64,000 nucleotides of DNA from Branchiostoma floridae (taxonomy: Eukaryota; Chordata; Leptocardii; Amphioxiformes; Branchiostomatidae), in contig NC_049981.1 of assembly GCF_000003815.2 (NCBI RefSeq), positions 27,239,785 to 27,303,784 of the forward strand, given 5' to 3'. The notes beneath the pieces were generated by a model that did not search any database, was not told the origin of the DNA, and was given only the letters and a program-made list of their open reading frames with translations. Both the position numbers and the translations under genes were made by a program. Shown here piece by piece: positions 963-58,200 of this stretch; position 1 is the stretch's first letter, and each line of letters opens with the position of its first letter.

Positions 963-3900
963 CTGAGGAAAGACAACAACGGTTACTGATCGCCGACTGA
1001 TTGATGACAATCAAGGCATGCATCTGATATTTTGTCATTGTCGTCATTTTGTCATGCTCGTTGTTAACTTAGCATACACCAGTCAGTACAATGTAGGTTG
1101 TTTGACAATTTTGATAACAATAAACTTTGAGAAGGATCACTAGAGTTGGATGAATCTTAAGATGCTCTAGGAAACATGATGCATATCTTGGGGTATATAA
1201 CCATACAATGTAATCTATACCACAAAATCAGGATAATCATAATAAAGGTACCTCCTGGATCACATCCCAGGATCTCCATTCTCAAGCTGACATGGCCACT
1301 CCAAGTCCGTGGGTTGACACGGAGCCAGCGGGTCAGGACTGGGTTGGGGAATGTGTTGGTCACAACGGTGTTGCGGTCAGAGTTTCCTGTAAAGACCTGC
1401 GTCACAACATGAAAGCCAATTAGTAGATGATTAAAAACAATTTTCTAATGTTTAACTCCATGCCTTACTTCAACCTTTCAGATGAAGTGTCCATATGTGA
1501 AACTTACACGTAGAATTTTCACGAAGCATTTCATCTACATTTCATCGAACCTTTAGAAACCAATAAAAGCTTTCAACTGTCTTCTTTCTTTCTTGTCAAG
1601 TGGTAGAAAATATTTTGCAAAATCAAAGAAATGAAATGAGTAAAAAGTCTCTTGTAAAATGCTTATGAAGTAAATGTCTTACTTGTACAGTTCCATCGGT
1701 GTCTGCATATGTGGTCCATGTGCTTCTGTCATCACTGTACTGGATCTGGAAGGTCTCAACCCACTGATCATAGTCAGCCCTACCCTGAGTCTGGATACCT
1801 GTCACACTTGTTGGATTCAAAAGGTCCACCTGGATAAGACAGATAATAAAGTTATTATAGTAAGAAATACAGGAACCATTATTAAGCAGTAGTTAAAAGT
1901 TGTTCAATGGTAAAATGCAATAGGCTTCATAGCTAAGCAAAATCGATAAAAACAGAATGAAACAATATTCACATTCAGACAAGATTTCGTAATCTCTTCA
2001 CAGTACCTGTACATCAACTAATCATGTGCACTTAAATTAATATACAAAACAACATGGTTCCATACCTCTATCCACTGGTTAGGATCATTGGTGGCGGCAC
2101 ACCAGGCTCCAGCGCCCCCTCCTCCCTGACCTTGGTGCAGACGAGCGCGCTCCGGGCCGTGTTGGTAGTTCCATGAGCCAGATGCAGCAAGCTGGCTGTC
2201 GTGAATGTCCCCATTTTCCATGCCAAGTGGTTGTAAACATACTGCAAAAATCCAAGTTTGTTTGTGTTTAAATGATGCATAAAACTGGATGAGACTGTTA
2301 TCTAATGTCACAGTGGCTTATGACTCGGGGTATAGTTGGCTGTGCCATGTGTTGGCCGGCCAGATTTGACGGTAAAAACATATCATAGCAATAGTTGCTG
2401 CTGTATTGGCCAATTACAATGGACAAATCAATGACTTAAGAATTGTTGAAAAGAAACAAATATGTTAAAAGCAATCCGTATTAATCTATTACTACATTAT
2501 GTAGCAGGTGGAATTAACTATCGTGTCAACCGACATGGTACACATTTGAAGTGACAGACAGACAGTGACTGACCTTGGCTCACACAGCGATAAGTCACTT
2601 CCAAATATTTGTATGTCCCACTACAAGGGTCCCCAAACACTGCGTTTGTTGCCTGAAGTGTGCACGTCTGTTGCCCATCACAGATCCCACGAACCACGTC
2701 CACACTCGTGGGCAACACGCAATCGGTGACTGAGATAGGACTGTCGGCACAGATAGTCTGAGATGTCCGTCCGTAGTTGGCGTCTATGATATCAATGACT
2801 TTGCCATCATTGCAATTCAAGTCAAACTGGTAACGTTCACACAGATGGTATGTGTAGGTGGCTAAAAATGAGAGAAAAAGGAAAAAAGTCTTAGTTTACA
2901 ACAAAAACCTGCAATGTTGAAGGACTAAGTATGGCTTGATCTATCATTTCTTAATGGAGACAGTGAAATCATGGCTAATCCCAAAGAATATTAACATTTA
3001 ACAAGCTCACATATAGGAATGAAAAAGCAATACAAAGAGTGAAAGCTGTTGGTGATTGTTTATTGCCTGATGCAACACATTCATGGGATGTCCCTGTAGT
3101 TCAACTGATAGCAGATTCACAGCTCCTGGTTCTAATTAGTAATGGTAACGAGTGACCATGACTCAAATCACGGGAAGGGCATCTTGGTTGGGGCTGCAAG
3201 GGTCTTTTGGAAGGGACATTAAGTGGGGGTTCAGTGGTAGACGATCATTGTGCCTAGACTATGTTAAAGGAGAAGGGCTAACCCCTCCTGTAAAAATATA
3301 CCAAAAGAACCAGCAAGAAACATTGCTGACCTACATGTACATGCCTCTAGACACTACAAGGTGAACAACAACAACAACAACAATAACAAGGCTTAGCATA
3401 TATTCACTGTAAGATTTGGAAACAGAATTGTGTTCTTACCATCTGTGGAACTACCTGAGGGTGGTGGTAGTGTTGGCACATTTCCTGCACAGAAGAGAAT
3501 TCAAAATACCAGTAAGAAATTGTAGTAAAAATCAGTCTACAGTAACTACAATTATATCAATAATGGTCTGCAAAAAAGTTAGTTCAACATAATACAGACA
3601 TATCACATATTGTATATGATTTACGTGTATGTTACTAAGTTCTTGTTACATGCCAATGTAACACACCTCTACAAGTTGTATTTGAAGAGTCTAACAGTCA
3701 AACCTGTACAAATGACTACCTCTACATAAGTACCACCTGGTCAAGGTTGGTCCCGTGCCTTTGATAATTTTCCTCATTGAAACTTGAAGCATAAAAATCT
3801 TGGCTAAAGTGACTACACCAGTATGTACCAGTCCACATAGACCAGATTTTATCAATCCCCTGAGTGGTTATATTGGACTGTATTTCAAACTCTTTTCAAA

Positions 3901-6900
3901 TAAGTACTTTTTGTCCGTTTCACTCCTGGGTTTTGATTTACTACGTTATGAAAACCATAATGACTCACCTCTTCTTTTACACATGTAACCACGCAGAGCA
4001 TCACAGGGCATGTCGTTCCACAGGGCATTGCTGACCAACATTTCTGTGCAGTCTTCACCAGAACCAGCATTGTTGGGTTCTCCTGATGACAAAGTTAGCC
4101 GGTGCACAAAGATTAGAATTTATCTATTGCAAAGCAATGGATGACTGCAACCAGGTAGAAAACATATTGCTTTGAAGTATACACAATGTGGTCTAGCATG
4201 TTATTTACCAAGAAAGTAATTATCCAGGAATTTTTTTTCTCCATTTTTTAGATATCAAGCAATAATGGTGGACCATGGCTAAAAACTCCCCACCAATTTT
4301 AACATACAAAACAAATGAATTGAATCAGAGGAAAATGGAGTGATGAAACAGCATCTCCAAGCTTGCAGAGTATGCTGTAAAGTCTTGATCTAGTATTTTC
4401 AAAATATTAGTTCACTACAGTATCTATGATCACCTCTATTTTTGTACAGTTAGCTCAGTCTGTTTTCTTCATATTGCTTGGAGTGGAAGTACTATACATG
4501 ACCAAAGGAAATGATGGTTACTGACTAATGTAATGCATCAACTCATGACTATGGTAGGTGTGTAGTTTTACCTCCTCCCCAATTCAGGTATGTGAAAGGC
4601 TGTCCATCACTCCACTCCCAGCCTCCCTCCGTGCCTCTGTCGTGAGCACCGATCCACACACTCGCCACACCATTCACTCCACTCAAACGACCTGGAAAAT
4701 ACAGAGAATTCAATGGATGAATGAATGAATGGATCATCTTTGAACCTTCATCAGACAGTCTATACATTGTAAAATCTACTCTGTATCATTAGATATCTTG
4801 TGACGACTCTTGTGACATTTTTTGTTAATATATATAAATCATATTTATTCTAAATGCTGGAGAAGTGTTCTCAAAGTATGTCTTTGTTTGATCACAGAAT
4901 ATGTGTACACTGTCATTGGATTTGATGATGGAAATATTAAAGTGTTATGAAGGTGTCCCTAATAAATCAGTGGGGCCTTTGATAATGCATCCATATCTGT
5001 ATCTATGGAGCCAACATAACTGCCCTTACAATACACTGGCTTTGTATGCAGTCTTGTGGTTCACCAAGCTCGTCATATTTCACTAAACGACCTGTCACAC
5101 CTAACTTTTGCACATCTATCAGCAAGCATTGATTAAAGCTACCTAAGCTACTTAAAGCTAGGAAGTTTAAGATGTGAAGCATTGTATGTATGGATAATGG
5201 ATAAACCTATGACTCCGACTCAGTACTTAAAATACACATGTAAGAATTGCTTGTCTTGTCTATTCTGTCCGTCTTCAAAAGTCACACTTATGAAAGTGGG
5301 GCATGTCAGCAGCCTCCTCACCGTTGAGGTAGGACTGCTCCTGAGGAGTGGTGATGCTGACCAGGTCGCCACCGTTGTTCTGGCAGTTCTCTCTGGCGTG
5401 GTGCCAGGTACGGAAGGACGCCACGTTCACCTGGTAACAGTAGTCACTCATGGGGTCCTCGTCCCACCCTGGGGGGCACTTTCCACTGGTCCAGCCTGAA
5501 ATGTGGAGGTCACAATTTGACTATGATTACTTGGAATGAAAGTATTGCATAATGGCGTTTGACTGATCAATGACAATTCAGTTCATACTATATATATACA
5601 AATGTATATATCAACAATTAGCATATATGAGGGGAGGTGAGGTGATACTTGATAAGTTACTGATAAATGTTTATGAGTTGTTCATGAATTGGGTAAAATG
5701 AATAATTTGTCAATCTTTTTACATAAGTTTGTGGATAATTGGGTGAATCTGATTATTTCTGTACTTTTTCAAGTCAAGACACAAGATATCAAAGGACCAC
5801 AAGTATTAAAAAAAAAACATATAACTGTGATGTACATGTACAACTCTCACCCCTTCAGAGTAAATGTATCTTACCAATTGTTGTTGGTATCACTGGTGGT
5901 GCTCCTATTTCTGAAGGCAGAAAATAAGCTTGTCATGATCAACATCAAATTGGCATTTGATGGAAGGTTTTGTTTCAAGTGCCTCAAGATACTTTGGAAA
6001 CTTTATTCAGCCCATGGCATTATCTTTATTGTTTGCATTAGTAGTTTCGGTTAAGCAAGATCTTTTTCCAACTCTATGAATGTTCTATTCTTACTAGCTC
6101 TAATATTTCATCCAGATAGAGTATTCTCAACAGCTACATGAACCATCTGTACCAAAACCAGTGTTATACAGAATTACTTGAAGTTATAACATAATCTGAC
6201 AAACTTGGTTGGAGGGAACTAAGAGTTCAGCACCAAGGACAGGACAGGACGGGGCAGAAAGTTCTTCTAATTGTCTTCGTTCAACATTTCCCATATCAAT
6301 TTCATGACAGTATGATTGTTTAAGGGGTTGATCCTAAGAAGGATATCATTTTAACCTTATCCTTCCTGCTTGAGCCCATAAGCACTATAGATTTCAATGT
6401 AAAATGGGTAGGTATCTAATCAGGTTGATCAAACTCACCTGCAGGTTTTTTACAGGTGTAGTCACGGTTTCTCCCATCACAGGGGATGTCGTTCCACTTC
6501 CCACTGTCCACAATCAGCTCAGTGCAGTCCTCCTCTCCAGCATTGTTGGGTTCATTGCCATTCCAGTTGAGGAATGTCTGAAGAAAGTACCAGACACTAT
6601 CAGATCTTCTCTACAAAGCCAGATATATTTCAATTGAGCAGGGGTTACGGTTAGACCACTTAAGAGGCCTGCTCACAATGTCTGAAGAGAAATGCTGCGT
6701 GAATCTGTAAGATATGAATCTTTAGTAGCTTAAAAGAGAAGGAAAAGGGGTACAGCGAGCCATCATAAGCTTTCATGTCAGTGGACATCCATCAAAACAA
6801 GTCTACTGAATTGCCAAAGGAGCAGGTTTGGGGTTCTGGATGAATTAATGATAAAAAAACTTATTGTAATGATATAGTAAAAGCAGGAAGAGATATGAAT

Positions 6901-9900
6901 GTAAAAGATGTATTTATTTTAGTTTGTCAGCGTTAACTATTGTACTGTACTCACAACAAGAGAGCCATCAGTCCAAACAAACGTCCCCTCAACATCCTTG
7001 TCTGTAAAACCTATGTGTTGTCTTGTGTTCATGTGAGCTAAAGGAAAAAGAAATACATGTATCATACACGTTTTCACAATAATCATGATCGAACCATTGC
7101 TGTGGCAGTACATTTACATCTACATTTTGTTGATAAACTCAATAAACAAATAATAAGCAAGCATCCAAATAAAGATGAGTCCTACATTTTGTTTGCAACT
7201 CTCGTGCCTGTTGTTTTAGCTAACCTTTTGTCCAAAGAGAGTATTCTCAGCCTGTGCATAGCCTGTGTTTAACAAGTGCTTAACAAAATTACAAAGTTAA
7301 ACTTCTACAATGCAAGGAACTAGAAATTCTGCACCAAAGACAGGACAAAACAGAAGACTCCTGCCTTCATTTAACATTTCATATCATTATGATTACTGGC
7401 AACCTTAAAGTTGAGTTTAAGAGGATGTTTCTGTTCACTTCATCTGACAAAATTAGCTACTAGATTTCAGCACCAAGGATATGGCAAAGTCAGACTAATT
7501 TCCTGTTATAGAGGGAAATACCAAATTTCCTTGAATCTAAAAGTGAATGCAAATTTCCAATCTCATTGAGATACCCTAAGGCTATGTTCTGGAAGGAAAA
7601 CAAGGTCTGTTTGAGAGAATTCAACTATCACCTTGACATTGACGCAGGGGCGGAGGATTTCAGCACTAAATACATTGCAAAGGCAGATTGATTTCATGTG
7701 ACTGTTGTTAATGTAATAGGGAAATACCAAATTGCTTTGGCTCTAAAAGTTCCAGTTTGATTGTCATGCCTACAGGCTATCTTCTGGAAGAAAAACAAGG
7801 CATGCTTAAGAGGGATGTAGCTCTGTTCAGCTCGTTATCTGACAAAATTGGCTACTGGAGCTTAGGACGTTAGCACCAAACACACGGTAATGGCAGACTG
7901 CTTTCTTGAAATTGAGAATTTCCTAGGGGGAAATACCAAATTGCTTTGACTCTAAAATTGAATATAGAATCCCATCCCATTGCCATACCAACAGACTATG
8001 TCCAGATAGAAAACAAGACAGCTTAAAGAGGAGTTCTTTGTTCAGCTCTTAATCTGACACAAGTGTCTGCAGGGACCAGGATTTCACCACCAGGGACATG
8101 GCAAAGGCTTTAGACTGTGACTGTTCTAGAGGAAAATACAAAATTGCTTTGGTTCTAAAAATTGGAAACAATTGTCCAATTTCATTGCCATACCTACAGG
8201 CTATGCTTAAGAAAAAAAAGGCAGGCTTACAGCGGATGTAGCTCTGTTCAGCTCCTGAAGTGATACTGGCAAGGTTGGCGCCTTGCTGTCTGCAGAAGGC
8301 ATCTGCATCATTCCAGCTGGCCTCTTGTTTCTCAAAATAGTAGCAGTTCCCTTGGAACAGGGACCACCCATCCGGACATGTCATGAATTCTAGGATTATT
8401 GGACAGAAAAACAAAAACATTCTGTGATCCAAATACCTCAGTCTGTAACTGTCTTATCTCATACTAGAGTACTGAAAGCCATATTTTCACAGTTTGAGTC
8501 AGTGTGTTCTAAAACACATGAATGATCAAGATGATTCACCTCAAGAACTTTAAAGAGCCCACCACAATTATTGATAAGGGTTCCATCTCGCTGTGAGTGG
8601 ATCAAACAAATTTGTCCAGACATGCAGCTTATAAATGTTTAGTACAGGAGGCATTTTACAAGGCAGATAATTCAACAGAGGGATTGCAGTTAGATATCAA
8701 AGATACAATGTGACACGTCAAATGGCAATACATTTCCATGGATTGTTCCAAGCTTAATTACATTTTGTACTTGTTGCTGACGTGTAAAGTATAACTTGAT
8801 ACTGTGCTACATACAAACTTACATACTGTGCTGGTGAACATATTAACATACTCACGTCCACTGTTGTCACATCCCAGGACTTCCACCCTCATACTTATGT
8901 GGTTTGTCCAAGCTTGCGGATTGAAGCGCACATACTGAGTGACAACTGGGGCATCTAGGAGGTTTGTAACTTCTGTGTCTCTGTCGTTGTTAGCTGCGAA
9001 AATCTGATGATATCGTTGTACATTTAGAAAAGTTCATGTATGAAAATTAAAGGATGTTAGTCTTGTTAGACTAAAATAGTACACCCTCACACTCAGGGTT
9101 GACATCGCGGCAAAGCCTAACGATATCACCCCTGACAAATCAGCCAGGGTATTTGGGTATTTGGGGCGCCCTGCTTATGAATATTAATGAGCTTGCCTGA
9201 TTTGTCGCGGGCCAATCAGCGACCGGATTGCAAGTTTCGAACAAACAGCGTACGGCGCGGCGTGTACAAAGATCTGTATTTCTTTGCGTGATGGTAATGT
9301 TTTTTTTATCGTATGCTAGGTCGGTACATATATACGGTGATGCCGTGGTTACCCTATACCCACAGAACCGACAAATGTTAAATTTGGTACCTGATAAAGA
9401 CGTCTGGACGCTGAAAGAACGTTACGCCGGTACTGTTATCTTGCTCTTGAATATTAATGAGTCGCCTTATATGGCGCCTTTCCGAGCTTCCGACAACAAG
9501 AAGCCAAATACCCAAATACCCTGGCTGATTTGTCAGGGGTGATATCGTTAGGCTTTGCCGCGATGTCAACCCTGAGTGTGAGGATGAAATAGTACAGTGT
9601 TCACTTACACAGTAAAACTGCTGACTTAAAGATGTTTTCTTGCAATTCTCGATAGTTAAACATGATTCCATTTTAATATAAGGGTAATGCTAGTTCACCT
9701 TTATCCACAGGGTAATCATTATCCAATGTTTTTATCAACAAGGTATTTAGTGATATCAACTTGAAGTCATATTTAGGTATATCAAGTCAACGGCTGTGGT
9801 TTAAAACTGCAATAATCTGAAAATACTTATTATTCATTTCAATTTGCAATCGCTACCTGTTGCCTTGGCATCCCTTACTACCCAGAACCACAGAATCTGA

Positions 9901-12900
9901 TATAGGTTATCCCACAGACAAAGGTGATGTAGAATACAATGTCAGATGAATGACCTTCTCCTGGAGGGTAGTGGCATCCACGACTGTTGTGAAAGTCTGG
10001 CCATCGTTGCTCAGTTGCAGTTTGAACGAGGTGACCCACTGTCCGCCTCCCTGTCCCGTGAAACCGTTCCGCCCCTGGGTGATGACACCACTGATGGTGC
10101 TCAGCCGGCCCAAGTCAACCTGTCAATAGTAGAATCACTACAACAGTCAGGACAACTTTCAGACTTAGATGAATACACAATGATTCACATTAATTTTATA
10201 GAATCTAGTGCAATTTTGCTTCTCAATATTAAATGTTTGATCGTAATTGTAAGCCATGTGTTTTTCGCGTGACCCCTTGATCTCTTTGTGCGCAAGTGGC
10301 CAGCTTATATTTTTCAAGATTGAATAAAGCCACAACAATGTGCATTAGTTTTGAATGATTGCTCAATTTCATAATGGATCAAGTTCATGATTGATCAATT
10401 GCATTTTATGATTACAACAATCTCTCATTACAGAGACACTCATGGCATACAGATTGGGTAGACAAGACTGAGATAGACGTGTGGAGGTGGGGTCTTCCGA
10501 CACCGAGGGGTATAGGAGAGGTGGTGCACTCGACTAACAGGACTACAGCTACGGACTACCTGGATGAGAGAAAAGATTCAAGTAGAAGTCTATTCTACTT
10601 TTGTAAGTGCTTCTTTGCTGATACCTGTAACCATTGGTACTGGTCATCTGTTTGAGCAGTCCAGGACCCCTCGCTGCCACCCACACCATTCTGTGTGTTG
10701 AGCCTACCATTCCAGGCTGATTGAGTCGGAGCAAATGTTGATGAAGCGGTGATTCTTTCATTTGGAATGTACCCTGATTCCATTCCCATAGGATGATAAC
10801 AACCTATTGACACATTGAGGCAGAAAGTGGTACTTTGTTACGGACCTGTAGCCATTCATTCTGGTTGTTTGTTAGAGCAGACCAGGATCCAATGCCACCA
10901 CCAACGCCATTTTGCGTGTTGAGCCTCGCCCGCCGAGCACCATGATTCGAGTTAAACTCAGAAGAGGCCGTGATCCTTTCGTCCGGAATGTACCCAGATT
11001 CCATTCCCATTGGTTCATAACAACCTATTACCGAGGACAGAAAGTTGACTTTTGGTAAGTTTCATTTCCAAATTCTCCACTTTATTCATTTTTGATAGGT
11101 TGTTTATTGATCTGTGTATCTGCTTGTCTTCCGGTTTGTGTCCATACTTATTTTTCTGATTTTGGCATGACTTGAAAAAATCACATGCACGGTAATTGTT
11201 TTTTTATAAAGAAGGTGATAGATAAATCAAAGTAATTTGCTGCTCCTCGTTAAAAGTGCTTCCTCGTGTCACAAGCAGATTTCACCATTTTCATCCAGTT
11301 TTCCAATTTGGAAATCTATCCATCTGGAAGATGACAGATGTTGCCAGATCCGATCCTCAAGAGTTGTGAATCATGCAAGTGCTGTTATGATGGATAACAC
11401 TTTACATTCGGGTTCTTCTTCTAATAGCCAATTATGTAGAATGGCTCAATTACCTAGGATGGCTCAATTACATTTCATGACCATCTTGAACTTGAAACAG
11501 GATTTCACCAAATTTGTGGTGGGTAGCATGACATGTAGTAAAACAATGCTCAAATGTACAAATGTTAAACTTTTTCTACACTTTTCTACATATCACTTTC
11601 TAGACATATAAACCAATGAAATAAAAATTTGTTTTTAGCTATACACAGGTAACTATATCCAAACTGTAATGTTTTGAATTAATTGCAATGTGAAACATCA
11701 TCTGTGGACTTGATATCCCTAAATACCCTTTTTTTCATATACATTTTGTATAACTATTACAGATATTGGTTACCCCACAAATAAAAGTGAACCAGAGTTA
11801 CATGATTTAACAGTTATTACATACACAGGCAGTAGAATGCACACTGTACATGTAGAGAGTACTCACTGCCAGAAAGAAGAGTTTCGCCATCTGGAATTTT
11901 GCAGGTAAAGCCGTGCAGGTAGAAACAACTAGTAGTCTCCCACTGCCCTTGGTCAGATCCTACAGACATTACAGACAACATTAGTAAATGTAGATAGCTT
12001 CAGTCCAAGTCTAATTTTTCTATCTATTATAGCACTAGAACGATGACGGCCCACCTCAGCAAAGCCTGATATGCGGCGAGGATGAGTGAGTGAGTAAGTG
12101 AGTGAGACAATACTCAAGTATTGATCAATCTATATATAAGATTAACCTTGAAATTTAATGATCACATATTAACAAAAGTACATTTATTTTCCTAAACTAT
12201 TGATAATTTAAAAAGTACTTTAAGTTGCTCCCAAACACTCCTTAGCCAAGGCTGGCGCTGGGTTGGGAGTAGCCTGGAATCCGTTCCATTCCCCTAAACC
12301 CCAGAGTCTGCTGCTCTGATTCCATGTAGAAGTACTTGCCCAACTTTGATTGCAAACATTATTCAGCTGGCAGTGACTTTGAAGAAGACTACCAGGCAAC
12401 CCTTGCAGCTCCCAGATGACCCTACTCATGACTATATCTCCCAACCAAGGTATGGAGAAAGTCAGGATGCTAAGCTCAGGTATGAGTGACCGACTTTATC
12501 TCCCAACCAAGGTATGGAGAAAGTCAGGATGCTAAGCTCAGGTATGAATGACCGAATTTATCTCCCAACCAAGGTATGGAGAAAGTCAGGATGCTAAGCT
12601 TAAGTATGAGTGGCTGTCTTTACAGCTTTAGGTGCAACACATATGGAAGACAGGGCACTCACCAGTATATAGCCTACTACAGTCCCAGCTGCCAGCTGTA
12701 TCCGTGGGGTTGTTTGGGAACCAGTTGGAATACGTCTCATTACTGCCATCTACCCAGTCAAAATGTCCGTCATCTGCCACATCTGTGTTATTAAAGAAAG
12801 AAAGAACAGAACATGGGGATAAAACATTTGACACAATGGAAAATGTGGACTTAGCACTGAAGTGCTATAGAGCATTTCAATATTTATTTCCTTAGTCCTC

Positions 12901-15900
12901 AGACAATGAAAGGTAAAAATATAGAAAGTGGATATCATTAAAGCAGCAAGGAAAACTTAAAAGATGACCATCACTGTATACCATACATAAAACTGAGTGC
13001 AACAAAGCACCTGGTCCTCTGGATATGTTTTCCCTAATATGTGTATACAGTTAAGCAGTTTTCGAAACATTTTTTATATAGAAAGATTATGTTTTTATAA
13101 AAATGGATATTCACTTTTCTATCAGTCTGCCATTGGCTATAAGTCATATATAAGAAATCTATGAAACTGTTTTTAATTACCAGATATTCCCAGCCACAGG
13201 TCCTGCACTCCTCCAGCCAGCAGGGTGGGGAACAGTGTCTGTACAAAGTTCTGCTCATCTTGGCTGGAAAAAATGGTTGATATCAAATTCATGACAAGAA
13301 CATGACAATTTTGCTGAATTGTAATACCATCATCACCTTGATGCCATGGTAATAATTACAGAAACTGCACACACTACTTAAATTGGACAGACATGTTTAA
13401 GAGGAAGATGTTACCAACCTGTGAATGGTTAACAGCATGGCACCATGACTCTCACAGTAGTGCCTGGCGTTCGGCCACGTCATTTTGGGGTTGATGTTGA
13501 ATTGGTAGCAGTAGCCATTGTAGTTGCGCCATCCAGCAGGACATGACCCTATTGTACAGGTAAATAATCAGTGTTTTAACACATACAAGACAGCATATAA
13601 TATACAAATTTAAACTGAGCCTTTCTCTTCCTTTCCATCAATCTATGGAACACAACATTTATAATCAAATCACTATCCAGTCCATTTAACTTTAAAAAAG
13701 AAATCAACAATTTTATGTCCTATATTCACTTATAACTATGTGTGTATGTTTGTTTCAACTCTGTAATTTGTCAATATGTATATTATTTTTCTATTGAACC
13801 CTGGAAGCCTTATAGCTAAAGGGTTACCCTAATAAACACTACCGAAGAGATTAACCATAGACAGATCCTGTAACCCTGTCATAACATAGAAATGCAAATC
13901 AAATTTCACAGACATGTAGCTACTACTCTCTATCATTGGTTGCTAATTTTGATTGACAGCAGGACAATAGTTACTGAGTATCAAACAAACTGCCTGAACT
14001 AGGATGACTGTAATCAAATATGAAATGTAATCTTGATTTTCAGCTTCTTTTCTTGAACTTACGCTGCTTCCCCTTTTCACACAGGAAAGCTCTTTCATTT
14101 CTGCAGCGGATAGGTCCCCACTTCCCTCCATTGGGAAACATCTGGATACACACTGCTCCTGGATAGGCCCAGCTAACAGCAGAAATGGCAAAAGGTTCAG
14201 TCATACACTTGTCGGAACAGCAGCTTGTAATTTTCCATTTAATTTTTGCTAAAAATGATTTAAAAACCGTAAACTGCTACTGTAACAGTAGTTCTCACAA
14301 TGTAAGAGTGACATCATGGTGTAACGTGCAAATGGTTAGATACACAGAAACTGTGTGGAATAAAATACACTGAAATCTTACCTATTATTGCTTACTGTGG
14401 CAAACTAGTGCATTGTACTTATGATACTACTTTCATTGAAAACTTTAGGGAAGTGATCAACATGCAAAAAATTCTGACAAGAAGACAGCCCAGGTACGTT
14501 TATCTTCAGATAAAATGTGGAGTTGCTTACTTTCCGTCTGACCCTTGGACGTTGGGACCCCAGTTGGTGTAGCTGGCAGGCGGACCACCTCCACTCCACT
14601 GCACCTGGTTCGGAGAGGCCTGTGGGTACAAGGACAGATATTGTATGTTATACTATCACAGTACATAACTCACTGTGTGGTTCATTGTCGATTAATATAG
14701 GTCCGCTTTTGTTAAGGCTAGACATAATTTAAGTTGGTCTATCCAATGACAGATCACCAGCTGTCTCCTTCCTGGAGGAATGTCACTTTGAAGATTGAGC
14801 TAAGTCAGAATTTTTTTTTCAATTTCTGGATTTGTGAATTTTTCCAGAAGAATGGCCAAGATTGAGTTTAATATACAATGTATAGGGACAGTCGGGGGAC
14901 CTTTTCCATCTCCTCAATCTTTGCAGGACAGATCTGGAGGCATCTGACAGTTTAAGACAAGTGGAACCCTCAGGAAAAACCTTCAAAAAACCAGATAATG
15001 AGTAGCCTGCAGTCAAGCCTTGTTAGCTTTGGTCTGCTCCCAACTCCAGGCTATAGGTCACATAACACAATACAGGTCATGTTACCACTAAGTGAAAGAG
15101 TCTAAAAACACTTACAGTGTCTGAGAGACCGATATATACAGCTTCCTGTATGGTTAGTGCTTTGGACATGACAAAGTTGTTCTCTGCATCATCGATGATG
15201 TTGACCAGGTCACCGCCATACGAGCGGCAGATGGACTGGGCGTCGAGCCAGGTCTCCTTCTGGCTCCCGCTGAACTTGTAGCAGCGGTCGTTGTACAGCT
15301 CCCAGCCATTGGCCGTGTCACAGGCATCAACAAGACCTACATGGGAGACAAGGCAATAGAATGAATGAATGAATGAATGAATGGATGGATGGATGGATGG
15401 ATGGATGGATGAATGAATGAATGAATGAATGATGGATGGATGGATGGATGGATGGTAGATTGGATGGATGGATGGATGGATGGTAGATTGGATGGATGGA
15501 TGGATGGATGGATGGATGGATGGATGGATGAATGGATGGATGAACATTTTATATCATATTTTATGCAATAGACTGTTATTTTTGTGAAGATTCATGTGGA
15601 TGATAATGCTCTTAGATTAGAAACACTACCCACCTGTATATCGCTCACAGACGTAGGGCTTTGCAGCCGTGCATGCCAAATCGTTCCACTTGCCAACGTT
15701 GGACCGTACAAACATTTCCACACAGTCCTCGCCGGTAGAATGAGCATTGTTGGGCTCACCAGTATTCCACATACTAGAAAATCATAACACATATCGTAAT
15801 TGAAAAATGCTAGTTCCCTTTATCCGCGGGGTAACCTATATCCGTTGTTTTTAAAAACAGAGTATTTTGGAAAATCAGATCGACGGAGGGTTGTTTCAAA

Positions 15901-41409: not shown

Positions 41410-42405
41410 GGGTTTACGGAAAAGGCTGGGCTGTCTACCTGGGCTGTCTACATGGGCTGTCTACCTGGGCTGGCTATCACGTCAGGCTACTTGGACCTAC
41501 GAAAGCCCATTGGGACAAAAGCTATTTTAGCAGTAGGGGTTGTTTGAAGGGTCACGGTGAACCATATCCAGTTGCTTGAGTAACTACTTTTTGGTGGATC
41601 TGTGTGTTATTATGTGAATGAGCTATGTGAAGTGGCAGTGTGTGAAGGAGCTGTATGTGAAGTAGCTGTGTTTGAAGGAGTTGTGTATGCTACATAACCC
41701 AGAGGTTCTGGGTTCGAATCTGTTGATATGCCACTGATCTTGTGCGCTTGGGAAGGGCTCTTAACACGACTTTCCTCCCTTCACTAGGGTAGAGAAAAGA
41801 GTACCTAGCTTCGGTAAGGGCCCTCCCTCAGATAGGGCAAAGAACCCACCACACTTACGGAAAAGACTAGGGGTCCTTCCTTCCCAGTGTAAGTGGTTCA
41901 AAACCTTAAGTCCTATGGCCACACCTGGGGTAATTGCTGTCGTATTGAGGTCACCTGAGTTAGCACCGAATGGCAGCAGTTCCAGACCCTCTAGCAACGA
42001 TTATTTTAAGCTCCTCACAATTCAATTGTCGATCCTTATGTATGGCGCAGAAGCCTGGACCATGACAGCCACTAAAGAAAGGCTCCTGGACGCCTTTGAC
42101 CAACTAGCCACCAGTCTTAAGACTAATCCAATCAGCCGATAAGTCGTGTTAATACTATAGCCCTTCCCAAGGGCACAAGATCGCTGGCATATCAACTGAT
42201 TTGAACCCAGAACCTCTGGGTTATGTAACACGCACAATAGCTTCACACATAGCTTCTTTATTGAGTACAAACAATCCCTACTGCTAAAACAGCTTTTGTC
42301 CCAATGGGCTTTCGTAGGTCCAAGTAGCCTGACGTGATAGCCAGCCCAGGTAGACAGCCCAGGTAGACAGCCCAGGTAGACAGGCCAGCCTTTTCCGTAA
42401 ACCCT
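41410..42405. repeat. 1-kb inverted structure with SINE arms and reverse-transcriptase scrap
   Basis: Left arm 41410-41551 (GGTTTACGGAAAAGGCTGGG, tandem GGGCTGTCTACCT units, GGCTATCACGTCAGGCTACT) is repeated inverted at 42263-42405. A second inverted pair, 41690-41765 and about 42155-42232, has tRNA-type SINE features: GGGTTCGAATC, a B-box-like motif, then TTGTGCGCTTGGGAAGGGCT. Between them the plus strand reads ILMYGAEAWTMTATKERLLD (about 42030-42095), typical of a non-LTR retrotransposon ORF2 tail. It ends about 140 nt upstream of the LRPAP1 start codon. Confidence 0.78.
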
Positions 42406-42437
42406 ACTTTATCATTCATGCGGTACAAGGGGTGGGG

Positions 42438-42450
42438 AGGTCAAAGGTTA
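42438..42450 (+). promoter_or_regulatory. DR1-type nuclear-receptor site upstream of LRPAP1
   Basis: AGGTCAAAGGTTA is a direct repeat of AGGTCA-like half sites with one spacer base, the form bound by HNF4 and RXR heterodimers. It lies 96 nt upstream of the start codon. This is a motif match only. Confidence 0.35.
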
Positions 42451-42545
42451 AACGGGTGATTCAAAGTCAGTGGGAAGCAGAGGACCGCACGCAGATTATA
42501 CCCTACTCACTCACAGTTTGTTCGGCCAGGTCTTCGTCTATCACC

Positions 42546-45500
42546 ATGATATCTTCACACTTTTATGTTCACCTTGTCCTTCTAGTCGTCTGTGCCCAAC
42601 TCTGCTTAACTGGAGCTGGCAAATATTCGAAAGAGAAGAACGATTTTCACCCGAAGGAGAAGCGAGATCGTGAGTTTCGCTCGGCAAAGGTGCAGGCCGC
42701 ATGGGAGAAGGCACAGAAGGTGAGAGCAGTCGCCTACCAGCTTTCGTTTACCTCCTTGCATTGCTTTAATACAGAATAGGACGTGTGCACATGCATTGTA
42801 TTTGGATCCTTGTAATTTGGTTGTAAATATGGGAGTAAGTATAACCAGGTCGTACATTTTCTCATGTGTACAAGAATACGTAACTTCCGCCCCTCCCCCT
42901 TGAAAAGCAAATTAATCGTGTTTCCTTTTTGCTGTGTCTTGTGTTTTGGGTACGCCCCGGAGACAGGTACATGGTAGTACCGTTAGAAAAACAAACTTGT
43001 AGCGTCTTTAAATGGAGCTTTTTCGTGTGTGTATTCATTGTGAAATAAGCATTTGACGTCCACGAAAGTAAATGTTATTTTTGTATAGTAGTACTGAGTA
43101 GCTAAAGCCATACGTATGTAACGGTACACATTGTATACATGTAGCAAACCGTAAATGGAGTTACTTTCTGTTCCCAGGCCCTTTTTCGCTAGCACTGCAG
43201 ATGTATTTTGTCTAAATAGAATGGCAAGTTAAAGAAGTTTACTGGATGTAACAGAAGAAAAAGATATCTATCTATGCCATGTCACACACTGATTGGTCAC
43301 ACTTACACTTACATTTGTAATTTAGTATGCTACAGGTGGCACTAGTTAAACTTAACAACAGGGAGATGATAAATTCTTCAAATAACTCTGGATCCTCTTT
43401 CACATAAATCATTTACATCAATATATCAAACATCCCCTATTGTTTTTTTCGGAGCATTAAGGAAAGAACAAGATGAAACTGTATTTTAGTACTGTTGATT
43501 AAAGCTTTCTTTGTGTAAGCAAGCGTGCAAGTTGAGTAAGCACTGTTAGTGGGACATGATGAGTTGGCCTAGTCTGATTGGGGCAGGCTTTATTTAATTA
43601 CACACTGCTCACGTGATGCACACAGTCTGTGTAAACTTAAAATGGTTCAGCGGCTGACAAAGAATTACCAACATCTTATGTTACTTGTTGCGGGATTGGC
43701 AGTGTTCAGACATAGAGGATGAAATAAGTTCTGTGGGACTCAGAGAACTTTCCAATAGCTAACCTTAATTAACTTAAGTTAGGCAGAAATAATACCTGTT
43801 CTTTAGGGGAATGGTCAGAAGAAATCAAATGAAGACAAGCAAGTGAATTGCAATTGGGAGCTACAAAACATATGGTACGGATGCATTAATGATGATTTCC
43901 CCAAATTTGTGATAGAACAAAAAAAATGCTGAACATCCTTCAGCGTCACTGCTTCTTGCAGCTGTTTGTGCGACAGTCCTTTGCAAGTTCATTTACAATA
44001 CAGGCAGAAAATGGGGCACTGATATTTGTGTGAACCGCTATCATTATCATCATCGCTAGACAACGTCAAGATGTGCCATCTTCTCTTTAATATCTGCAAT
44101 AGTTGCTCTGTGCTGAGCTGCAGAACTTTCCAGCAGTTTTTCAGCCTCCTGTTTTTCACCTTCTGGCTGGGCTACTTCAGCCTTCAGGGTTTTAACCACC
44201 TTGGCTAGACGTCACGATAAGATGACACAAATGGGAGCAAAGTATTATGGACTGCAGTTGCCACCTAGTAGTGTCATTCCAGACAACTAACAGTATTAAA
44301 TGTTTTGTTTTTCTCTGCTCAAAGCTTGTGTCTGAGGCCAAGCTGGCCGAGCTCCACAGTGACCTGAAGTTACACGAGATGGAAGAGTTCAAGTGGAAGA
44401 AACTGAAGGCAGAGGGGGGAGACCAGGATGGAGAGAAGGAGGCAAACCTGAGAGAAAATCTTCTTAGTGAGTGATTTGGCATCTAAGGGGTTACTAAGAA
44501 TTATTAAATCATTAAGTTAAGATCTGTGTACTGGTAGCCTTTATGAGGTATGTTCCATCATTGAAGACTACTTTTATTTACTTTTGTTTAGGGTATCCAC
44601 TAGCCTGGGTACCATCCGGATAGTAGTTCGCTCCTATGTTCGCTTCTGCTATCGTGAGACGTGCGCATTCAAACGGTTTGGTGGTAACATCAGTTAATGA
44701 GCGAATGTAGGAATGGGTTCTAGAGCGCTTGTTCGATGACAACAGGCCTCCCACGAGCGGGCGGAGGGCTTGTCCGGTGTTGGAACATCTGTTCGAACGA
44801 GCGCTTGAGAACCCATTCCATAATTCGCTCATGTGGGGACCAATCAGCGTGTGCTTCCACTTTTTGTACGATTCCAGACGTTGAGATGGTTCGCGTTCCC
44901 AGACGGAAACACAGTGAAGCGACTGTATATAGTGTATAGTAATGTCAGAGCTAGAAGCGACTGTATATAGTATATAATGAACGCCGGAGCAAACTACTTT
45001 CCGGATGGTACCCAGGCTAGGTATCCACAGTATATTCTTGTCATTAGTGGCTAAATTTTTTTTGCTTACTAATGACAGAAAAGATTGAGCCAGCACTTAA
45101 AATGGAAGATGCTACTTCTCCTTTCTATATAAAAAAGAAAAGAAAAATAAACCAAGATTTCTTTCTCTAGAACTGATGTCCAAGTATGGGATAGATGGAG
45201 GCAAGTATGAGCAAATGAGATCTAGAAATGATGTGGAGATGAATATGAGGCATGCCAAGGATGCAGCCAGGGAGTTCACAGACCACAGGATCAAGAAAAT
45301 CTGGATGAAGGCGCAGAAGGTGAAGAATGTCAATTTATTCTTAAACATGATAAATTAATAAAAAAAAAAAACTGGATTTTAATGACTTTGTTTTGTGTGT
45401 ACGTACTTTGTCCGAAGTATAAGCCCCTAGGCCCATTTCCACTAGACTCTGATATGGTCCCTCATTGCAGTTAAGTTTTTATGTTACCTTCACAGAAGGG

Positions 45501-48500
45501 AACATATTGTTTTTGCTTTGTTTCTTCTTCTTTTCCGCACAAATAAGGTCAACGACCTGGACCAGACGGCTGTCACCATGGTAACCGGTAAAGTAGCAGG
45601 CACCATGTGGTGTTCGGTTACATAGTGTAGCAAATGTCAGATCTAGAGGGGCTCGGGTCACTACATTTAGAAATGTGTTCAAATAAGAATGAACAAAACA
45701 GTTGCCAGTGTTAGACTACAACATGTGAAGGTAACATTCTGTATTTGCTTGCAAATATTACCTTTCTAGTTTATTTTGCTTTTTGAACAGACGAGGACAA
45801 TGTGGCACTCACTCAAGTTAGTAACTTATTTTAACAGTGCCACATACAAAGCACAGACAGAAAGTAAAGGTAGTCTTTTTACCTGCCCAATTGAAGGCAG
45901 ATTTTTACACCTGGATGAAATGAGAAAGGTCATGTGGAGCATGCATAGTATTGAACTTGGGGCCCCTTGATTCAGGTCCCAACACTCTACCAGTTACGGC
46001 ACACACGACGCCATGCCATTGAAGTTTCTAGTGGGATGAAATTATCCTATAACATAATATGAAATATCTGTACCAATTGCCTCATACCAAATGGTATATT
46101 GTTGTGTCAATTATTCATCACAAGGCAAGGCATACCTGAAAATATTGGGTATAGCCAGTCTTGTTATGAGATCAGAACAGCAGCTAAAAAACATGTTATT
46201 AACAGTCTGTCTCCTGTTATTTATTCTTTCACCGGGCTAGGGGTGGGTACCAGTACAGAAAATTCAGGCCCAGGTACGGTCCAGGTACTGAAGATCAGGT
46301 CCACGTCCAGGTCCGGACCTGAGCTTGGATCTGATTGTCTGTGAAAACTTGTGAATGGGTGATACACAAGACAATGGTCCTTTTCACTTTGAAGGATTCT
46401 GTTAAGTGACTTCCACTGACGTTTTAAAATCCTATCTTCATGTTAACAACACTAACTTCGACCAAGTTTGACTGTAGAAACTGTAAAATGCATATCAACT
46501 CTCCTTTACTTTGCTCTTGCTATTTTCTTGGACCAGTAAGCCTCAAAACACGTGAACGCCTGCGAACATAATCTGTTCATTTTTTCAGGTCCGTTTTTTT
46601 CTGGACCAGTCCAACAAGAAAAAATTTGTTTTGTACCGGTACAATGTACCAGTATCCACCCCTACACAGGGCATATACTTCAGTTTGTTTGAAAACTACA
46701 TGTACAATTTGATATCAAACACTTCAAAATGTCACCCCAGAATGTGGCAGCTGCAACTTTACATAATTTTGCTAGAGGGCATTCCTCTATGAAACTATGA
46801 GCTTGGGAAGCATCCTGCTTGTAAGTACATGTACATGATTGCTTGAATATTCACACTTTTAACACAGGCTGGATTCTCCCCTGAGGAGTTGGAAGACTTA
46901 AGAACAGAACTGAAGCATCACCAGGAGAAGGTTGAAGAATATCAAATGATGGCCAACGAGATACCAGACTACAAAGGTGGGTACTTGCACATTTTTGCAC
47001 GAAAAATCACACCATTTTTAGTCAACCTCTATTGGTAATGTGCACCTATCTGCATTAACAACGGGTGAAAAAATTACCATTGTTTCAATATGTTCCTAAT
47101 GTAATTATTCTTGTAAAGTACTTACAACAGGTACTATAATAGTAGCATGGATTTGTTAGAGGCCCTATCTTATGGACCAAGAAGGTTAAAGAGCTCTCTT
47201 TGACCTCCTTGTCTGGACCAGGAATGTTACTTTGAATCTTTACTACTGTCACTGGAAAGGCTTGCAGGGCTAGGGGAATTCCATAGTGCACTAAACTTGT
47301 AAATACTTACATAGTAATCTATCTTCTCTGTCACAACCAGTGGAAGAGTAGCTTAACTGATCATTGAGTCTTTCACTTCCTTTTTGTGTATCACACTTCT
47401 TCTATATACTCTTGCATTTTTGATCATGTAATTTATGTATTTATGTATTTACATTGTATTGTACGCTCAGATATTCTACTTCCTACTCTCTCTGTAGAAA
47501 ACACCATTGAAGGAAGGGACAAGAATGTAGAGTTGAAGCAGAAGTTTAGGGAACTCCGAGACGATCTCGGCAAGCTGGATCTAAAGATATCTTCTGGGTA
47601 TAATGATGAGATGGACTTCAAAGAACCCAAAGTCAAGGAACTCTGGGCAGCCGCACTGAGGGGCAACTTCACGGATGATGAGCTTAAGTCTATCAAGGTG
47701 ATCTTGATTAGTGCATAGTATAAGTGATGAAAGAACATAGATTTAGAAAGTTTTTTGTACATAATCAATGCATTAGTGAATGAATGAAAGACCTTTATTG
47801 TACATTCATGCCTCGACGGGCTAGGTACAGGTCACTGATAACAGACATGACTGATAACAGAATAACAAACATATGAAAAAACAACAGGATACAATTTAAC
47901 TAGTTGAAGGTACTAAGCTAACAGGATGGTCGACATCTTCTCGCTTCTTTGTACAGGTGTAGATATAAGAACATATAATGTTTGATATACAGGGTTTGTC
48001 TAGGCGCATCAAAAATAGAAATTTATCCGTTGCATTAAGATGTTCAAAATATGGGAACTCTTTTCTGATATATTCATAAAGCACAATCTGTTCATTATGG
48101 TACAATTTACAGTGTAAAATAAAATGCTGTTCATCTTCTACATGTTGTAGATCACAAAATTGGCAGACGTATCAAGCTGATTTGTCTGTGACTCTCTGTA
48201 ACCTTCCTCAGAGAAATACTGACCTAGGTTCTACTCAGCACCACACGTTGCTGTAGTGAGAAGTAGAACCATGCAGTCAGTATTGCCCAGGACATTCACA
48301 GATGGTTACAAAAGTTTGGCTTGATACCATCCCAATGAAACTAATTACAGATGAAAGAGTGTAGCTTTAAGAATGGGTGCAGAATTTAACCTTTAATCTC
48401 TTACTTGTGGTTTGTGATTTTCCTCAAGTCATGCCATTAAGGTTTTAACCACATCATGTGTTTCAATATGCCAAACACTCACTGTTAAATTGAAATAAAG

Positions 48501-55200: not shown

Positions 55201-58200
55201 AGGTCACCATGGCACAAGTTTTCACCGGTGCACCACACACCCCGGGATTGATCATGCTTGCACTGCGTTAAAACGGGCGGAGAAAAGTTTAACAGATCTC
55301 TAGACCACCATTGTTCTCTGTAGAACTAATCTTTCTACCCTAGGATTAAATAATTGTCCCTGGCGCTTTACAAATAGGACGACATTGAGTAGCTCTACGT
55401 TTCCAATGATTGTCATGGTACCAAGCGGCGATTCTGTCCAAATGTGCAATGATACGGGAGACAATTTTGGAAACGTATTTAGTATCTTTATTACCTTTCA
55501 TGACGTCCGGCATTACCTCGCCTTGTGGACAATACCTAACATGATTTGTGAAGTGCAATATATTTTAAATGTTTCTCACTTTCTAAAATTTCCACCACCG
55601 TTTGGAGTCAAAGCGCAGGCTTTGGCCGAAGAGGATTTTTTTTTGCGAGTCGTACCAGTTGGAGCACCTGTTGGACGACCTGACTACCGGTAACTTTGCA
55701 GCGAGACTTCAATCGAGTTTTGGTCCTCTGAATTATCTAAAACTTGTTGATTTTGACCAGTAATATTCCCCTTGACATTATATGAAGAAAGTGGGACTAA
55801 AAACAAGTGCAGTGCTGTGTCACGCTGGAGTACAGTATCCAAAACAGGGCACGGGTAACGGTTAGCCGAACATCTAACGCCACCATTTTACATGAATAAT
55901 CAATGACTTATTTTCTTGTTAGAAGGGTTAGAACTACTTTATCATATTGACCTGTAATTAGCTTGAGGAGCACAAATGTACAATAAATTCGAAAATATAT
56001 TACTCGTTAGTCGAAGCGACGACCGGATAAAGAAACGCCGTGGATGGCAGGATGGCTGCATCCACGTTACCCTTACAGAAGGAGAGACTATGCACTACCC
56101 GTGCATCGCAAATCATTCAGTAGTGATAGGGGTTGGGGATGGTGACGCACAATCTACGGGTCGGTGTCATGTTCCCCTGAGAAATTTGGACGCTTCATCT
56201 TTCGTAATATGAAAGGTTAGACTTAGAGAACTGCCCTGGATCGGGCCAGGGACAGGCGGATCTCAGGACACGCAACAGTGCCTCCCGAACCGTTCTGAAC
56301 GTTCGGACCGGCTATCACGATTATTGTCAGCAGGGTGTCAAGCTTGAAAGACTCCCCTGTCTGCCCCTGGGGATAACATGAGCATTGCGCGTGCGTCGCG
56401 GTCATTTCAAATTGAAAACTCATCAGCAAACCGTTTCCTGATGTCCTGTGTTATTTTTCCGCTTTTTAGTCTTAAACTAAGGCTAAATGTACAGACTATC
56501 ATGGATAAGTTGGAAGAGGTGTCGCGTGAGGGGTTTGTACGTTGTCGTTTCGGGTCAGGATGCATCAAACTGCCATGGAGAGATGGAAAAGGACTAGCAA
56601 CACAAACAATTTGTGTGGAATTATGTTCTGATGCTGTTCCAACCGACTGCCGAAACTTCCGTGGAATACGAACGGACTGGAATACAAACATCCCTTCTTG
56701 TTCAAGACTGAACTGGTAAGAAACTGTTTTACATCGTTAAGCTGTGTTACCAAGTGTGTTAGATGTGAAATTATCAACAGCACAGTCAGAATCCTGGCTA
56801 ACTGAAGTATCCATGTATTTTTTCCGCACTTACTGGGACTCCTGTGGGCTGTATTATGCACAATGTTGTTTCAGCGCCCATTTTCGTGGAAACACAGTAG
56901 TATGATGACGTAATTTTCACTTGTTGCAGCAAAGAGGAAGTCATGTTTCCACGTACCGTTGCAAATTATATCATAAATATAACCTTCTCGGCGAAGATAA
57001 TGATGTGATTATGATCGTCTTACAATTTCCGCATACACCACTGATCGGAGGTAATTTTAAATCCATGACGAAGGTAACGAAGTTGTTTCCTCAATGTCCC
57101 GGGTTCGATAAAACCTCCCTGGTTGGGGGCAACGTTCTCACGGGTCGGACATGTCGGAGCCAGGCGGATCTCTGGACACGCCACAGTAAATCCCGAACCG
57201 TTTGAACCGTTCGGACGGGCTATCGGGATTATTGTCAGCAGGGAGTCAAGCTTTAGAAACTCGCCTGCCTGCCCCTGGGGATAAAACCTGTGAAATTCCA
57301 GCGAAGTTGTTTTCTTCTCTGTACTTCAGTAAGTGTATCTTGGTTGTGTACATGCCCAATGCTGTGTAACGACTAAACGCACAGAACAAAGACTAAACTG
57401 TAGACTAAGCGTAATCTGAATTAGCACGTCAGGTGTCCATATCCATGCTTCATATAGAGTAGAGAGAGTAGAGTACAACTACAACTGAAAAATATTAATA
57501 TCAACGTTCCATAGAATTACTTCTCCTCACCATGGCATACTAGTAACTTCCTCCCAAGGACGTTATATCCATGTCCTCACGAGCGGAATTTCCTCGACAA
57601 TAATCCTCCCGTTTAATATTGTTCCTCCTTACCAACTTTTCAAAAAGCGTTTATTTACTTGTGCCGCAAGTAAAGATTTCGCCTGCTATTCACACATGTG
57701 CCTTTGACGGGCATAAAAATCTATCAAGCGATGTGAAAGTTGAAACGTCTACGGCGTAGGTTAACAATAATCCTCTAGGGTGACGTCTTTTAATCTCTAC
57801 TCATTCAATCAACATTGTATGATAACACTCGTGGTACTTCTGAAGCCTTCTGAATATCGTTGATTTTACAAAAGTTAATGAAATCACATGCACAATAACT
57901 ATACACTAGAGACAAGCAGATTTTACATCCTATTTGCTTTGCTGAATAATTTAAGTAGATTCTAGACTTACGGCCGAAGCTCAAAGGTGCGGCCGGACGT
58001 TGGTGATTTTGCCAAACTTCCAGAAATTGGAGACCCGTTGTAGTGTGACATTTTGATTACTGCCCTACGAATCGGTCTGGTAGGCGGTTGTCCCCGGAGA
58101 CCAGTTTTGCTGGGATTAGGACAGAAGGAAAGCTTTACGGGAACACCGGCCAGTCTTGTCAAAAGTCGCTTACAAGTGCGCAAAGTAAATTTACTGACGA

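Follow-up and report, generated by a model that had tools for sequence, protein, structure and literature searches.

Two tandem 179-nt exons of a lancelet multi-lectin gene are probably mutually exclusive and would exchange two loops of a discoidin domain

Exons 3 and 4 of Drosophila Neurexin IV encode part of the N-terminal discoidin domain, and alpha-tropomyosin and alpha-actinin have longer introns between their exclusive exons than the one described here. The two Neurexin IV exons are described as mutually exclusive, with isoforms that differ in adhesion (PMC11893892; PMC10635556), and the choice between them as requiring HOW and Cdk12 (PMC11893892). For human OGDH exons 4a/4b, alpha-tropomyosin and alpha-actinin, branch points are reported to lie too near the upstream donor, and a steric threshold of ~50 nt between donor and branch point has been proposed (PMC7969005); elsewhere the minimal productive distance in human is given as 46 nt (PMC11291888). 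A human survey lists 377 clusters (60%) with lengths not divisible by three and 57 mutually exclusive clusters (9%) that are potentially steric (PMC5740500). Given the frame-incompatible and steric human clusters and the precedent of Neurexin IV, the kind is already known; what is new at the lancelet locus is this particular member, its minimal intron and its near loop-only divergence.

The window, by which we mean the whole 64-kb stretch of DNA analysed, corresponds to C3:27239785-27303784 in the genome searched (513,431,437 bases in 431 contigs). A partial gene model was built by hand on its (-) strand (1252-14172; 20 exons per isoform); it covers neither an established 5' nor an established 3' gene end, and more C-type-lectin-like exons lie upstream of it. 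Within the 884-aa part that it encodes, Pfam recognizes Lectin_C (three stretches), F5_F8_type_C (two) and SUEL_Lectin (one), and the F5_F8_type_C match (PF00754) scores 112.7 bits with exon A and 108.1 with exon B, the two alternatives considered here, against a gathering cut-off of 28.2. In the A-isoform model the 19 introns have GT-AG ends and measure 155-1193 nt (median 489), one of them spanning B and the 42 nt beside it. The first F5/8C domain has its third exon at 8856-9003 (-), and the second is encoded by exons at 2066-2241, 1683-1829 and 1252-1396, all (-). The first of these (D2; 176 nt) is single, homologous to A and B and of the same phases, and it served as an internal control for their comparison.

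Several repeats lie in and near this gene. An ATGG microsatellite of ~46 units (15361-15542) stands ~100 nt 5' of a C-type lectin exon, and a 62-bp unit is repeated three times in tandem (12430-12612; 95% matches) in the intron before the exon at 11867-11959. Another intron holds ~4 degenerate tandem units of ~205 nt each (7460-8263), one of which copies, with 82% identity, a segment containing the end of the adjoining lectin exon 8231-8389. In the intron after exon C there is an inverted repeat (9070-9598) with 95-nt arms that are 94% complementary and a 339-nt spacer; it resembles a small MITE-type element.

Exon A (10846-11024) and exon B (10625-10803), both (-), are each 179 nt long, with phase 1 in and phase 0 out. 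Exon A encodes the first part of F5/8C domain 1, including two loop segments that we call L1 and L2, and B is an alternative copy with its own L1 and L2; they are identical at 41/60 residues and 129/179 nucleotides. The sequence between them (10804-10845, (-)) has GT-AG ends and is without a run of three or more G. With the exon border marked by a slash, the acceptors read ...TAATAG/GT for A and ...TCAATAG/GT for B, and the donors CAG/GTCCGT and CAG/GTATCA, respectively. The models with A and with B share an upstream exon (11867-11959, (-)), which carries the end of a C-type lectin domain and has the donor GCA/GTGAGT, and the downstream exon C (9955-10119, (-); 165 nt, phase 0/0), which continues the F5/8C domain and includes the part that aligns with ligand loop L3. 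A first-pass annotation of this DNA had described tandem 179-nt exons of equal phases and ~68% identical protein, 42 nt apart; its coordinates proved exact, and the interval is exactly 42 nt.

The same annotation had noted that using both exons, or neither, would break the reading frame, and both outcomes were reproduced from the sequence. When A and B are both spliced in, the frameshift leads to a TGA within exon 9955-10119 (...RLTWAG-stop); when both are skipped, the junction reads AGT-TGA (Ser-stop); and when the 42 nt between them are retained, they supply an in-frame TAG. The 20-exon partial model agrees, in that the single-exon paths through A or B are open for 884 aa and the A+B and neither-exon forms have stops in all three frames. 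Judged by the criteria for mutually exclusive exon pairs in PMC5740500, A and B are neighbouring internal exons that are similar to each other, equal in length and reading frame and bounded by GT-AG, and they belong to the frame-incompatible class, joint inclusion breaking the frame and joint skipping doing likewise. We consider it likely, at roughly three chances in four, that A and B are tandem-duplicated mutually exclusive exons whose exclusivity is enforced both by frame and sterically, and one gene would then probably yield two proteins by exon choice.

The solved structures closest to this domain are those of neuropilins and of factor V/VIII, judged on the best 60 of the 67 distinct PDB sequences that each search matched. 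The ligand site of neuropilin is built from three loops, and contacts in NRP1 include Y297, N300, W301, N313, T316, D320, S346, T349 and Y353 (PMC8945599); the assignment of these residues to loops comes from our alignment and not from that source. When the alignment is made with NRP2, the swapped exon carries contact clusters 1 and 2 (L1 and L2), and exon C carries cluster 3 (L3). The predicted placement thus supports the view that the differences between A and B concentrate at the ligand-binding face of the discoidin domain. That they fall exactly in the first spike, as had been proposed, holds only as far as the ligand face is concerned: two loops of the three are involved, with 9/11 positions of L1 and 8/14 of L2 differing (counted from the sequences), and since both loops lie in the swapped exon, more than spike 1 would be exchanged.

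By sequence the domain belongs to the same F5/8C family as neuropilin b1 and the C domains of factor V/VIII, but the key pocket residues and the hydrophobic tip of these proteins are not seen in it. The ligand cage of NRP2 is formed by Y299, D323, S349, T352 and Y356 (PMC8945599). With NRP2 numbering assigned to the alignment by hand, these correspond to F, N (in A) or D (in B), G, G and Q, and at T319/D323 exon B has Thr/Asp and exon A Ser/Asn. Because exon C has G, G and Q at S349, T352 and Y356, a neuropilin-type C-terminal-arginine pocket is ruled out, despite the Asp and Thr of B. Factor VIII C domains are characterized by the hydrophobic tips M2199/F2200 and the conserved R2320 (PMC9643838). 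Of these features, an Arg at the apparent position of R2320 is present in MRVEVLGC, and a Met-Phe-like hydrophobic tip is seen in the L1 of neither A nor B; the earlier reading of L1 as a factor VIII-like membrane spike is therefore unsupported.

To compare divergence across the exon, the 60 residues were split into L1 (positions 23-33), L2 (positions 44-57) and a scaffold of the remaining 35, a division drawn post hoc with the A-B alignment already in view. On this division A and B differ at 17/25 loop positions and 2/35 scaffold positions. For the scaffold, dN is 0.037 and dS is 1.6, with 3/0/15 differences over the three codon positions, and for the loops dN is 0.57 and dS 0.87, with 13/8/11, the A-B dS being close to saturation. 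Loop and scaffold differences number 17 and 2 between A and B, 13 and 19 between A and D2 (Fisher P 0.0009 against A-B) and 18 and 20 between B and D2 (Fisher P 0.003 against A-B), which argues that the concentration in the loops is not just the usual variation of F5/8C exons. Positive selection on the loops was considered and is unsupported (dN/dS ~0.66).

These figures bear on the strongest competing explanation, that a single copy, probably A, is used, and that B was silenced recently or is rarely used and still looks intact. Over the whole exon, with 25 neutral changes, 19 or fewer replacements are expected with P 0.90, and the count therefore suits one decaying copy well; likewise, the stop-free state has P 0.30-0.48 under neutral decay and is uninformative. 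With neither the replacement count nor the missing stop being informative, it is the scaffold that carries the case for constraint. If 9/18 scaffold changes were neutral, the probability of two or fewer replacements would be 0.00075, and if 20 neutral changes were spread across the exon it would be 0.001; on the scaffold it climbs to 0.037 with 6/18 neutral changes and to 0.27 with 4/18. Neutral decay of one copy thus fits poorly with the conserved scaffold and is disfavoured. In exon B the two splice borders are intact, the frame is open and 33/35 scaffold residues are retained at a scaffold dS of ~1.6, and the low probabilities (0.00075-0.001) hold under equal sharing of changes and weigh less against a very recent silencing. 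We regard a silenced or rarely used B as unlikely.

The history of the two copies provides what further speaks for silencing, namely that two trees give B the longer branch and that A is closer to paralogs at most of the positions where the copies differ. Branch lengths are 0.51 for B versus 0.038 for A in one tree, and 0.37+0.085 versus about 0.09 in a 42-row tree. Among the paralogs found with A as query (18 rows), 16/19 differing positions are A-like; when those found with B were added (38 unique rows), 14 were A-like and 5 B-like, so the first count had leaned on the query. Other paralogs often share the residues P26, G33 and Q57 of B, and in the 42-row tree B groups not directly with A but with L021 (G000:C12:18727716-18727883; 96/94 support), a lone first exon of a discoidin domain at another genomic locus, whose branch of 1.2 was flagged by the tree program as long and unsure. 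For both reasons the direction of change is unproved: that B is clearly derived holds only in part, given the 14 to 5 count and the L021 grouping, and B is probably, rather than provably, the derived copy.

Several searches indicate how isolated the pair is. An unbiased direct-repeat search recovered it as one of its families (there numbered D2), and when the window's 2178 stop-to-stop segments (20 aa or longer) were scanned with a profile, three scored above threshold: A, B and the homologous second-domain exon. At this sensitivity the window holds no additional copy next to the pair. Genome-wide, the best non-self match is mutual, A finding B at 79.3 bits (next match 63.7) and B finding A at 79.7 (next 46.2). 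Matches to A number at least 137, from 150/295 candidates scored, and among the 137 scored matches A and B, 221 bp apart, are the closest pair and the sole pair less than 1 kb apart, the next-closest being separated by 1050 bp. Within 1.5 kb of the 39 paralog exons retrieved from the rest of the genome, no second copy was found; a 9-residue partial match next to L007 and L009 fell under the per-stretch cut-off. Viral contigs yielded no relatives. A remnant third copy after B was also sought, and the similarity of the sequence there to the stretch 5' of A or to the 42 nt 5' of B was not significant (P 0.12, 0.09). The stretch 5' of A and the 42 nt 5' of B have in common a pyrimidine segment, AAAGTxxACTTTCTGxCCTC (shuffle P 0.001), so the duplicated unit probably took in the 3' splice region.

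The 42-nt interval, shorter than each of the 19 introns modelled for the A isoform, contains a lone TNAY motif, TAAC at 10837-10840 (-), a candidate branch point by its sequence. The motif overlaps the donor of A, with its adenine at +8, and is separated from the acceptor of B by 34 nt. A full YTNAY branch-point-like motif, CTTAC (11055-11059, (-)), precedes the acceptor of A at a similar distance (31 nt). The donor-to-branch-point distance falls below the ~50 nt of the steric class, the whole intron being 42 nt, with the threshold a vertebrate one and the branch point predicted. That the 42 nt give a steric reason for exclusivity, as the first-pass annotation had suggested, is thus plausible, the interval being below the published, mostly human, limits. 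OGDH 4a/4b resembles the mechanism proposed for A/B, in that a short donor-to-branch-point spacing enforces exclusivity, but its branch points are described as distant ones before a long pyrimidine tract, whereas in A/B the entire intron measures 42 nt and the incompatible frames form a second barrier. Steric exclusion of A-B joining is likely but not certain, because a spliced human intron of 43 nt is known, which is described as G-rich (PMC4463651); its G runs have no counterpart in the lancelet interval.

A quite different use of the interval would be as a poison switch: splicing or retention of the 42-nt intron would yield mRNA with a stop, and degradation of that mRNA would tune gene output. 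The stops in both the double-inclusion and the retained forms agree with such a scheme, as do the joining reads reported in 83/377 frame-incompatible human clusters (PMC5740500). The interval is, however, under the published donor-to-branch-point limits and without the G runs of the 43-nt human intron, and the scheme would leave the loop-restricted divergence unexplained; we consider it very improbable. Long-range RNA pairing between a docking site and selectors, for which insect genes offer a precedent, is equally improbable as the means of choice in place of steric competition: there are three inverted repeats of 13-16 nt within 10100-11900, but when the 42 nt are paired with each flanking intron, or the two introns with one another, the duplex energies are equalled by shuffles (P 0.75, 0.31, 0.2).

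By strength the donors of A and B rank in the middle (9 and 10 of 21), and unusually weak donors as a sign of alternative use are accordingly rejected; checked by eye against the U12 consensus, neither GTCCGTAA nor GTATCAGC appears to be a full U12 donor. The 842-nt intron 5' of exon A contains TGCATG twice (11184-11189 and 11372-11377; 0.32 expected, in a post hoc search), which we take to be an Rbfox-type motif; the pair is a lead only.

Under mutually exclusive use of A and B, U1 on the donor of A and U2AF/U2 at the acceptor of B would compete for the same 42 nt, so that this donor and this acceptor would not be usable together. Engagement of the donor of A would block the acceptor of B, and A would be spliced to exon 9955-10119; engagement of the acceptor of B would lead the upstream donor at 11866 to join B, and A would be skipped. 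Double inclusion, double skipping and retention would each run into a stop codon. The two resulting proteins would have a common discoidin scaffold and L3 and unlike L1 and L2, and the swap would most likely change what the domain binds within a multi-lectin protein. A fuller proposal is that the 42 nt serve A as donor and B as branch point and acceptor, forming a minimal two-state switch that exchanges two of three loops; an invertebrate-chordate multi-lectin would thereby gain, from one gene, two specificities of recognition on an unchanged scaffold. We hold this proposal tentatively, at somewhat less than an even bet.

As in Neurexin IV, where the isoforms are described as having distinct adhesive properties, the exons would be mutually exclusive, but the fly protein is a junction/adhesion molecule and not a multi-lectin mosaic. 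Literature searches combining mutually exclusive exons with discoidin gave nothing evidently relevant, as judged from the listings; those on amphioxus with mutually exclusive exons, and with exon duplication, alternative splicing or tandem, gave no title on this gene; and those on Branchiostoma with discoidin, C-type lectin or alternative splicing gave work on lectins in general only. No figure for the shortest amphioxus introns was found among the matches listed. If the preferred reading of A and B as exclusive alternatives is correct, the locus would be a small, clear and testable case in which alternative splicing, and not gene duplication, diversifies a recognition surface, set among at least 137 scored genomic matches to the exon, of which only these two lie less than 1 kb from each other. 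The 42-nt interval also offers a natural test of the minimum donor-to-branch-point spacing outside vertebrates.

Elsewhere in the window, open frames at 42354-47718 (+) match the C-terminal domain of alpha-2-macroglobulin receptor-associated protein, the match to its N-terminal domain being below cut-off, and by these matches they belong to an LRPAP1-like gene. Two direct repeats of 124 nt each (56253-56376 and 57161-57284) are 85% alike and 908 bp apart. An open frame of 184 aa at 61978-62532 (+) contains a TIR_3 domain (53.4 bits) and presumably resembles adaptors of the BCAP/BANK1 type.
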